Positions 1 through 2,844 of a DNA stretch of 64,000 nucleotides are shown in pieces (positions within the stretch are counted from its first letter, which is position 1; each line of letters opens with the position of its first letter). Made by a program: the position numbers and the translations under genes. Under the pieces are notes generated by a model. The model was not told the DNA's origin and did not search any database. It saw only the letters and a program-made list of their open reading frames with translations. Origin of the DNA: Anaerolineae bacterium (GTDB lineage Bacteria; Chloroflexota; Anaerolineae; Anaerolineales; Anaerolineaceae); assembly GCA_013178295.1 (NCBI GenBank), contig JABLWW010000001.1:186001-250000 (forward strand). Reading direction: 5' to 3'.

Positions 1-2844
1 TGCTTTGACTGTGCTCAAGATTTTGTCTGGGGCTTCCCCTGCCGCGCGTACTTTGACGGGCTGTGTTGATGAAACCGGTTCTGTTGTTGTTTCCTCTGGA
101 ATAGAGATTGGCGGGGGCGCAACTCTGATGGGTTGGGTTGGTATGTCAACCGCTTCTTCAATTTGTTGTTCCCAGGGGTAGGAGAAATCTTGCTGGGTAA
201 CCTCATCTTCAGAGGTGTCTTCTACGGTTTCGGTTTCCTCCAGTTGGGCAAAAATATCATCCAGAATCTGCTGTGCATCGGGAGAGCTGTCTGCCTGAGA
301 GGTAATCACAAAGGGGGCAACGTGGGAAGTATCTTCGCTTTCGGTTTCATGTTGGTGTATTGCAGCTTCTGGCTGTCCCGGGGGTTCTATTTCACCTTCC
401 TCAGTCTGTGAAAACGCTGCCGTTTCCGGGTGGAGTGGTTGAACAGCTTCAGCTTCTGTTGGGGGCATTACTGCTTCTGGCTGTCCCGGGGGTTCTATTT
501 CACCTTCCTCAGTCTGTGAAAACGCTGCCGTTTCCGGGTGGAGTGGTTGAACAGCTTCAGCTTCTGTTGGGGGTGTCATTGCTTCGGGCTGTTGCAGGGG
601 TTCTGTAACCTTGTCTTGTTCTTGATCAAGGGATTTTTCGCGTGATTTCGCGGCTGCGGACTTTTGCTGTTGGGGCGATGTTTCAAACAATTCTGATTTG
701 ACAGATTCGATTACTTGGGCGATAAAGTCAACGTCGCTGGTTGCCTGCGGAATGGATTGCTGGTTGAGCTGTTCTCGTACGTTTATCAGAATACTGTCAA
801 TATCGGGTTCCGGAAAAGCGTCTACCGAGTCCTCCTGAGGGGGAGATATCTCCGATGTAGCCATTTCCTCCTGAGGGGGAGATATTTCTGATGTAGCTAC
901 TTCCTCCTGAGGGGGAGATATCTCCGAGGTAGCCACTTCTTCTTGAGAAAGAGACGTTTCTGGTGTGGTCAATTCTTCTTGAAGGATGCTTTGCGCTTCT
1001 TCCTCTGTGATGGTGGCAATGTCGCTGACATTGCTGCTTTGTCTTTCCAACTGAGCTAGAACGGAGCTGAGAATGGCATTGCTTTCGGTGTCCTCGGGTT
1101 CACTTTTTGTGATGGTTCGATCAACCTGTTTCTCTAAAGCAAACGGCGTGGTGATATTTGTTTCTTGGGGTCCCTTGTTAAAAAGTGAAACGAGTTCTTC
1201 TTCCAACGAGAGTTCTTCATCCTCAAAGTTGACATTACCAGCGCTGCTTTCCAGTTGGTTCAGCACACTTTGCAGAATTTCTCTGGCTTGGGGGAGTTCG
1301 TGGCTCCCAGCGGCAATTTGTTCTGGTATCCACTCGCTGACGGTTGTGTTGCAGTTCGCATCGGAAAGTCCGGATTCCTCTGGTGGAGCGGGTTGAACAG
1401 CCGTTTCATCGTCTGCAAGTTCCCATAGCCGTTCAGCTTCTGTGGGTAATTGAGTCAACGCTGATATGGGCAGTGCACGGGCAAAACTTAGCGTTTGGTT
1501 GCGCATCCGGCTAAGGGGTGTGGCGATATCGAATATCAGACACAGGATAAAAACTTCGTTGAGCGCTGTGGCGTAGAGCATACGTTCCGTATTACCACTG
1601 TCCATACGGACGAAACGCACCAAATCGCTCTGGTAATCTTTGTCCCAGTTCTGCTCAATGATTTTGACAATATCTTGAGAGACCTGCTGATGAATTTCTC
1701 CGGCTAGGGCAACAATTTCGCCGTCTCTGATGATAAGCGCGCCATGAGCGCTGGTCTCTGAGAGCAGCTGTTTTAACTTCTCGATGATTGGGTTGATTAA
1801 TTTCAGGCGTTCGAGGGTTTGGCGGTGTTTTTGGGCTTTTTCTGATGCCAGACGAGCGTGTCTTGCGGCGAGCTCCGAATGTTCGCTTGCCAGCCGCGAA
1901 TATTCAGCCGCCAGCGCAGCATATTTATCTGCCAGCTCTTTGTGTTTCTTAGATAGTTCCTCGTCGGTAACAAATAAGCCATCCATGACATGGGATGATG
2001 CAGGCGTAGAGATATCTTCCTGTCCCACCAGGGAAGTCTCTGTCTCTGTGGTTTGTTGCTCCTGTTGTGCTATTTCCTCGAGAATGGTCTGTTCTGAAGC
2101 GGGTTGGCTTTCAGTTTCGACTTCCCCAGGTTCTTGGATGGTGGGCGCGCTGATTTCCATTTGGATAGAGGCTTGCCTGCGGCTGGAGTCGCTATCAACT
2201 GTTTCGGTTTCCTCCTCTGCCTGCATGGTTCTCAGCTGTGCGAGCAGTTTGTCTATTTCAGCCTGACCGGCAGGCATGTCCTGACTGCCTTCCAGAAGGC
2301 TTAGCTCTTTTTCGAGTTGCTCAACCTCAGTAGTTTGATTGACGGCAGAGGGGATGGGCGAGGATACTGGCGACGACTGTTCTACACTCAGAATATCGGC
2401 GATAATCTCTTGGGGTTGTTCAGGAGGCTCGGCTGGTGTAGCAGGCGCTTCTTCCTCTTGCGCTTCTATGAGCGGTGTAACAGGAGCACTCAGCAGACTC
2501 TCGATCATTTCAATCAGGTCTGGCGGATAGAACGGGCGGCTAAGGTAGGCATGGGGGCTGAGATCCTCCAGAGCTGGGTCTTTAGCACTGTTTTGTGCCT
2601 GGATGATCACTAACCTTAGGGATGGGTTTTCATCTAACAGGTTTTGTGCCAAAGGAACGAAAGGCTTATCTGGCAGAGCAGGATCAAGAATAGCAAGATC
2701 AAACTTGATCTTATTTGCTGTTTCCATCACTTCTTGACCGGTTTTGACAAGTGAAATCGCATATTCGCCGCTTTCCTCAATGTTGAGGCGTAGCAGTTCG
2801 CCAAATTCGGTTTGTGGGGTAGCAATCAGGATATTAGCTGCCAT
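1..2844 (-). CDS. Degenerate receiver / coiled-coil / roadblock-like scaffold protein, partial (runs off left edge)
   Basis: One frame stays open from an ATG at 2844 to the window edge (at least 948 codons). Residues 1-120 resemble a response-regulator receiver. The acceptor-like Asp54 is kept, but the acidic pair after the first strand is gone and the KP lysine is replaced (LSRPF). A run of almost perfect heptads (residues about 295-345; units such as YAALAAE, YSRLASE, HSELAAR) predicts a coiled coil. Residues about 355-465 look like a roadblock/profilin-type fold (inference). The rest is acidic, Pro/Glu/Thr-rich and low complexity, with a 12-residue repeat, a 36-residue repeat and scattered ILxxVxxQL helices. 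There is no HTH or catalytic motif, so a scaffolding or signalling role is a guess. The -10 TACACT lies 6 nt before the ATG, which suggests a leaderless mRNA. Confidence 0.75.
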   Translation of the reverse strand, partial: MAANILIATPQTEFGELLRLNIEESGEYAISLVKTGQEVMETANKIKFDLAILDPALPDKPFVPLAQNLLDENPSLRLVIIQAQNSAKDPALEDLSPHAYLSRPFYPPDLIEMIESLLSAPVTPLIEAQEEEAPATPAEPPEQPQEIIADILSVEQSSPVSSPIPSAVNQTTEVEQLEKELSLLEGSQDMPAGQAEIDKLLAQLRTMQAEEETETVDSDSSRRQASIQMEISAPTIQEPGEVETESQPASEQTILEEIAQQEQQTTETETSLVGQEDISTPASSHVMDGLFVTDEELSKKHKELADKYAALAAEYSRLASEHSELAARHARLASEKAQKHRQTLERLKLINPIIEKLKQLLSETSAHGALIIRDGEIVALAGEIHQQVSQDIVKIIEQNWDKDYQSDLVRFVRMDSGNTERMLYATALNEVFILCLIFDIATPLSRMRNQTLSFARALPISALTQLPTEAERLWELADDETAVQPAPPEESGLSDANCNTTVSEWIPEQIAAGSHELPQAREILQSVLNQLESSAGNVNFEDEELSLEEELVSLFNKGPQETNITTPFALEKQVDRTITKSEPEDTESNAILSSVLAQLERQSSNVSDIATITEEEAQSILQEELTTPETSLSQEEVATSEISPPQEEVATSEISPPQEEMATSEISPPQEDSVDAFPEPDIDSILINVREQLNQQSIPQATSDVDFIAQVIESVKSELFETSPQQQKSAAAKSREKSLDQEQDKVTEPLQQPEAMTPPTEAEAVQPLHPETAAFSQTEEGEIEPPGQPEAVMPPTEAEAVQPLHPETAAFSQTEEGEIEPPGQPEAAIHQHETESEDTSHVAPFVITSQADSSPDAQQILDDIFAQLEETETVEDTSEDEVTQQDFSYPWEQQIEEAVDIPTQPIRVAPPPISIPEETTTEPVSSTQPVKVRAAGEAPDKILSTVKA
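365..573. repeat. Tandem 108-bp in-frame duplication, 101 bp identical per copy
   Basis: Bases 365-465 and 473-573 are identical at a period of 108 bp, giving two copies of a 36-residue Pro/Glu-rich segment of the left-edge protein. Perfect identity indicates a recent duplication or ongoing homogenisation. Confidence 0.9.
831..974. repeat. 36-bp tandem repeat, three good copies and one decayed
   Basis: Copies at 831-866, 867-902 and 903-938 differ by a few bases. A fourth (939-974) is diverged. Each encodes a 12-residue unit of the type TSEISPPQEEVA in the left-edge protein. There is no spacer between copies. Confidence 0.9.

Follow-up and report, generated by a model that had tools for sequence, protein, structure and literature searches.

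A receiver-roadblock protein of Anaerolineae with a degenerate IS200/IS605 transposase-like domain, encoded next to polA

The analysed window (64,000 nucleotides; window 1-64,000 corresponds to G000:C1:186001-250000, where G000 is the source genome) opens with a gene whose product combines, from the N to the C terminus, a degenerate receiver, a coiled coil of six heptads, a roadblock fold, an acidic tail and a transposase domain of the IS200/IS605 (Y1/HUH) type. We consider this architecture, which emerges from sequence comparison and structural models, to be close to certain. The presence of a dead transposase domain, together with the usual position of the gene just upstream of polA across the class, suggests a regulatory protein, not described before, that acts in DNA repair or replication.

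The open reading frame lies on the minus strand (window 1-2844) and runs off the window edge at base 1, so that the window encodes aa 1-948. The whole frame is uninterrupted, spans C1:185455-188844 (minus strand) and encodes 1129 aa, the remainder beyond the edge being located at G000:C1:185455-186000 (L002:7455-8000). The initial annotation had correctly recognized the receiver, the coiled coil, the roadblock-like part and the acidic tail, but the tail is not the end of the protein, since the chain is closed by the Y1 transposase-like domain. Long open frames are also present on the plus strand, antisense to the gene (window 1784-2266 and 1073-1396); they are probably shadows of biased codon composition. 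The compact orthologue L067 (516 aa), modelled with 80 sequences, showed three confident domains with disorder between them (mean pLDDT 81).

Domain structure

The receiver (aa 1-122; window 2479..2844, minus strand) was identified by its match to PF00072 (E 3.2e-5 in Pfam, under the curated cut-off), by the orthologue model, in which it resembles receiver domains with Z of about 18 (best 18.8), and by residue counts within the family. Direct reading of the sequence revealed that the acidic pair is absent from the window protein (ATPQ) and that the conserved Lys is replaced by Arg (LSRPF), with the phospho-acceptor Asp54 kept. Among 80 orthologues, Asp54 is found in 80/80 and the Lys in 75/80, the positions of the acidic pair are occupied by T and P/S/A, and the complete phosphorylation site (acidic pair, Asp and Lys) is missing from the receivers of this family. 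The domain is thus rightly described as damaged, with the caveat that its Asp is strictly kept.

Six consecutive perfect L-x6 heptads, beginning at about aa 298, form the coiled coil (aa 296-345; window 1810..1959, minus strand). The heptads were already noted in the initial annotation; this region was modelled as a single 65-residue helix (model residues 2-66, pLDDT 91-97), continuous with the first helix of the roadblock part; a coiled coil is also present in the linker of the protein from the sister genome G002.

The roadblock/LC7-fold domain (aa 346-465; window 1450..1809, minus strand) was recognized by AlphaFold2, Foldseek and structural Z scores. The model of the coiled-coil/roadblock region, obtained with AlphaFold2 from the window protein's own region and 41 homologues, reached a pLDDT of 92.5. 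The top Foldseek matches of the roadblock part were the MglB proteins of M. xanthus and T. thermophilus (E 2.7e-6), Z scores against MglB and Roadblock/LC7 structures were 12.6-13.6, and further structural neighbours were found in the roadblock parts of Rag proteins and of Mon1-Ccz1. The region has no Pfam match; PF03259 (Robl_LC7) was not found in the window protein, and its sole match in the genome is another gene, encoding a canonical roadblock protein and located elsewhere. A roadblock-like domain had been proposed from the letters of the sequence, to be abandoned if structure prediction returned no such fold; the prediction did return it, in favour of the earlier reading.

The last 140 aa of the protein (aa 990-1129; C1:185458-185877, outside the window, minus strand) match IS200/IS605 transposases, both in NF033573 (E 1.7e-13) and in the Pfam family Y1_Tnp, PF01797 (E 2.6e-12; 47.4 bits against a cut-off of 23). 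When the corresponding domain of the L067 model was compared by Foldseek, the top matches were ISDra2 TnpA-DNA complexes (including 2xma), and a relationship to TnpA PDB chains was detectable at the sequence level (E 1e-13 to 1e-5). In IS608 TnpA the metal ligands are H64, H66, D61 and Q131, and the nucleophile is Y127 (PMC5934647). Within the fused family the two HUH His positions carry Tyr (77/80) and Gln (77/80), giving Y-x-Q in about 77/80; the Q131 position is Thr in 72 of the 80 orthologues, and the Y127 position is Tyr in 62 and Phe in 18. The window protein has Y, L, T and F at the positions of H64, H66, Q131 and Y127, respectively (its HUH triplet being Y-M-L, within KPNYMLW). The HUH His pair is intact in no fused domain among those aligned, and the Y---Q nucleophile motif is missing as well, being F---T in the window protein, with the family mostly keeping the Tyr without the Gln. 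Taking into account the replacement of both HUH His residues and of Q131, it is very unlikely, as judged from the alignment, that this domain cuts DNA by the known chemistry.

The domain has nevertheless a dense conserved core, with the blocks NPSGDFWAPGYL, WRLE, RPEY and R-Q-x-T-S, which indicates that it is maintained and does not represent a relic. Judged by copy number and neighbourhood, the setting is not that of a mobile element: the source genome has only one such fusion, and the neighbourhood is constant across families. In a tree of 51 rows, a branch with support of 99/100 separates all 38 fused domains from the free IS200 transposases and the RAYTs. This single clade is most simply read as the outcome of one capture, after which the domain was inherited vertically; a single capture is thus likely. 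Degeneration of a transposon or the chance fusion of a fragment was rejected as an explanation on account of the single clade, the conserved core and the order-wide conservation.

It could be argued that such a domain acts purely as a module for protein dimerization or partner binding, making no contact with nucleic acids, given that the working form of TnpA is a helix-swapped dimer and that the charge of the domain is weakly positive (mildly basic, +1 to +8). We regard this as improbable, because Arg and Ser/Thr positions are conserved in the segment aligned to the LKGxSS motif of TnpA.

A free, approximately 190-aa dead transposase-like domain, lacking receiver and roadblock parts and located away from polA, is encoded in the genome G035 (L061 7618-8199, minus strand). 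Its HUH motif is also lost (Y-L-Q). Similar free copies occur in G340, G348, G404 and G414, all within one family of the order.

The acidic tail and its repeats

The roadblock and transposase-like domains are separated by a Pro/Glu-rich tail (aa 466-985, of which aa 466-948 lie inside the window at 1..1449, minus strand). As claimed previously, this tail is long and acidic, its net charge being -94 over 520 aa (114 acidic versus 20 basic residues), and the matching linker of the orthologue was modelled as disordered. It contains four strict copies of the motif ILxxVxxQL, all encoded on the minus strand and detected with a regular expression and a shuffle test: ILQSVLNQL (aa 523-531; window 1252..1278), ILSSVLAQL (aa 591-599; 1048..1074), ILINVREQL (aa 685-693; 766..792) and ILDDIFAQL (aa 860-868; 241..267). 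About 0.003 copies would be expected; in 20,000 shuffles of the tail, 19,946 contained no copy and 54 contained one. The motifs reported earlier are therefore real, but the strict pattern yields four, plus looser ones, in place of the "at least five" initially counted.

The orthologue from G002 contains five copies, and since it groups with the window protein as its sister in the tree, the repeats are both real and shared. ILxxVxxQL is absent from the other 21 of the 23 family members examined, being present only in the window protein and that of G002, and was accordingly rejected as a family-wide signature. A different motif, LLxDVPxPDP, occurs as a single copy between the roadblock and transposase domains in 70/80 loci, and takes the form of a short helix in the L067 model (residues 294-305); the window protein has lost it.

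In two further parts of the tail, TRF detected ordinary tandem repetition of the DNA: 36-bp repeats with EVATSEISPPQE units (window 830..966, minus strand) and a 108-bp (36-aa) tandem duplication (365..604, minus strand), seen also in the identical 30-aa stretches at aa 758 and 794. Other lineages have expanded other linker repeats, e.g. LTQEEISAMFAQ in G022, where the orthologue linker (L040 7250-10135, minus strand) contains several near-identical copies. We take this sequence to resemble the N-terminal peptide of FliM, which binds CheY, and it might therefore bind a receiver domain. Such lineage-specific expansions indicate that the linker evolves fast and that its repeats are a lineage-specific decoration, possibly adding avidity.

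The initial annotation interpreted the protein as a multivalent scaffold, in which repeated ILxxVxxQL helices would recruit several copies of a partner, with the folded domains serving only for dimerization and localization. The excess of strict copies over expectation, their number in G002 and the expansion of other repeats elsewhere are in agreement with this proposal. However, confinement of the motif to two sister genomes means that scaffolding cannot be the core function of the family; moreover, linkers are short in the compact orthologues (437-600 aa), and the most conserved part of the protein is the transposase-like domain. As a general explanation, the scaffold is thus hard to credit.

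Distribution and genomic neighbourhood

The domain order described above recurs in most of 41 relatives and in all 80 Anaerolineales/Chloroflexota loci retained by the genome search, and the three-domain protein was found across Anaerolineales as well as in further orders of the class. A search of Chloroflexota had been proposed for both the domain order and the helix motif: the former recurs class-wide, but the latter, among the 23 family members examined, does not extend beyond the two sister genomes. The roadblock part was detected in 101 of 201 genomes of the order (E 1e-4). At E 1e-6 the roadblock profile had no match outside the class among 301 genomes across the phylum, a threshold at which diverged members could be missed. 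Orthologues vary in length from the compact forms to 1202 aa in other orders, and some members in other orders of the class consist of receiver and roadblock only. Receiver-roadblock proteins of about 256-349 aa, with no transposase domain and encoded away from polA, were noted in four loci of such orders (L189, L190, L191 and L192). In G008, a short orthologue without a detectable roadblock part is encoded beside polA (L047 5548-6540).

Downstream of the gene, on the same strand and after a gap of 104 bp, lies polA (C1:182567-185350, minus strand), followed by a gene for a 778-aa TPR protein. Of the 80 loci, 74 have polA downstream in the same orientation, usually at a distance of about 20-250 bp and with the TPR gene next; two of the six remaining loci are contig ends. 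In the order-wide relatives, which share several genomes with the 80-locus sample, polA is directly adjacent in 23 and separated by one intervening gene in 3. The adjacency recurs in other orders of the class (G166, G347, G382, G202, G314, G393 and G122), and was not seen in G002, G270, G260 and G073. Conservation of the upstream genes is limited to far fewer genomes. In two class members encoded beside polA (in G289 and G359), no transposase domain could be detected.

Some lineages have lost the gene. The UDP-sugar dehydrogenase gene that flanks the window gene in G000 adjoins polA in G007, where the orthologue itself is missing; no hidden gene remnant was found upstream of polA at the 12 loci checked in gene-lacking genomes. 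The absence of the linkage in some genomes and of the gene in G007 indicate that the gene is accessory to polymerase I. At the junction between the gene and polA, a consensus scan found no same-strand terminator-like site and a weak promoter-like sequence (minus strand, 7475-7447 of L002), the latter being a consensus match only. Further along the same strand, beyond polA and the TPR gene (L002 651-2275), we recognized by eye the genes for an ECF-type sigma factor and a probable anti-sigma factor, a pair conserved in about seven relatives.

The polA linkage is the strongest functional clue available, although gene order by itself does not prove interaction with polymerase I. It also bears on the idea that the protein is an RNA-binding post-transcriptional regulator, whose dead domain binds RNA hairpins, polA being a chance or co-regulated neighbour. 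A hairpin-reading fold might recognize hairpins of either RNA or DNA, and the acidic linker does not discriminate between the two, but strong class-wide linkage to the gene of a DNA enzyme makes such a role rather improbable.

It was also predicted that a GTPase of the MglA type would co-occur with the protein. A Ras-like GTPase (P0002) is indeed present in the source genome, and where relatives possess it, most show 69-84% identity, but it is not linked to the window gene: it is located in its own operon, with separate neighbours, together with a gene for a protein whose start resembles DUF4388/PATAN proteins. The window protein could be a small-GTPase regulator that carries a polarity or localization cue, its roadblock domain targeting an MglA/CvnD-like GTPase and its transposase-like domain serving as a nucleoid tether. 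The closest structural relative of the roadblock fold being MglB is in agreement with this, as is the fact that the GTPase was found in 97/101 genomes with a roadblock match versus 61/100 of the others (p 3e-10, a value inflated by shared ancestry, since much of the co-absence is concentrated in a few genera, g11, g16 and g18, of one family). In G008, likewise, the GTPase is missing along with the roadblock part. We treat this co-occurrence as suggestive only. Taking into account that much of the co-absence comes from those few genera and that the GTPase has an operon of its own, a GTPase partnership was rejected as the main explanation, and the presence of the canonical roadblock protein elsewhere in the genome also makes such a regulator an unlikely one.

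Proposed role and relation to known systems

The role that we tentatively favour, while rating it at somewhat below an even chance, is that of a non-cutting adaptor, which would bind folded single strands under the control of its receiver and roadblock parts and work with DNA polymerase I. The TnpA domain, which probably derives from a single capture of an IS200-type element, may still recognize folded single-stranded nucleic acid without cutting it, candidate targets being hairpins and fold-back or lagging-strand structures. The roadblock domains, and in the window protein also the coiled coil, would dimerize the protein; the pseudo-receiver and the roadblock would take input, possibly from a small GTPase; and the acidic tether and its helices would dock a partner, for which DNA polymerase I and the TPR protein encoded beside it are the likeliest candidates. 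In this way, polymerase I might be brought to, or held back at, structured single strands. PMC6006769 reports a presumed contact of IS200-family TnpA proteins with the sliding clamp, as well as binding of REP palindromes by E. coli polymerase I; we count this parallel in favour of the polymerase I adaptor. The mildly basic charge of the domain counts against it.

A broader proposal, about which we are more doubtful, is that a signalling protein with a dead transposase domain of single origin senses folded single-stranded DNA and controls polymerase I throughout the class. If true, this would constitute a regulatory arm of polymerase I not seen in model bacteria. The persistent polA linkage provides a concrete candidate partner of polymerase I in Chloroflexota, in which the regulation of DNA repair has been little studied.

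All parts of the protein are known; their combination, the catalytic loss and the polA linkage are undescribed as far as could be found. In the open-access literature we found no publication combining Y1_Tnp and Response_reg and no description of a receiver, a roadblock and a dead transposase in one protein, an absence that constitutes weak evidence of novelty.

The roadblock fold is shared with MglB and Roadblock/LC7 proteins. The window protein differs from MglB in having no Pfam Robl_LC7 match, in carrying the roadblock embedded within a multidomain chain, and in the lack of an adjacent GTPase gene. RomR, FrzS and AglZ of the M. xanthus polarity module combine a pseudo-receiver with a long flexible or coiled-coil region and are linked to a roadblock/GTPase module; they resemble the window protein in having a receiver plus a region of this kind. 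To our knowledge, no pseudo-receiver protein of that module has roadblock and transposase domains in one chain. These three proteins have been named in the literature as MglA partners.

The IS200/IS605 TnpA proteins of ISDra2 and IS608 are related to the C-terminal domain both in fold (Foldseek) and, detectably, in sequence. They differ from the fused family in that the latter has lost the HUH metal site, is linked to polA in most of its members and is inherited as a single clade; in the window protein, moreover, the domain is fused to a signalling and linker portion of about 985 aa.

The known domesticated Y1 transposases are the TnpA-REP proteins (RAYTs), likewise host-maintained, single-copy Y1 domains not borne by an IS. 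RAYTs keep the HUH and Y---NP motifs and associate with REPs (PMC6006769), whereas the family described here has neither motif. The source genome also encodes a separate, intact RAYT (L201 1459-1992; G000:C18) with DHLH and YIHYNP motifs. A survey of Y1 proteins from 2018 kept for its phylogeny 722 of 924 sequences, i.e. those with both the HUH and Y motifs (PMC6006769), so that proteins like the one studied here would have been set aside. We therefore class this protein with the domesticated Y1 transposases, and see a fair chance that it is more than that: unlike the catalytically intact RAYTs, it would represent an ancient, vertically inherited, cutting-dead Y1 domain residing within a multidomain signalling protein.
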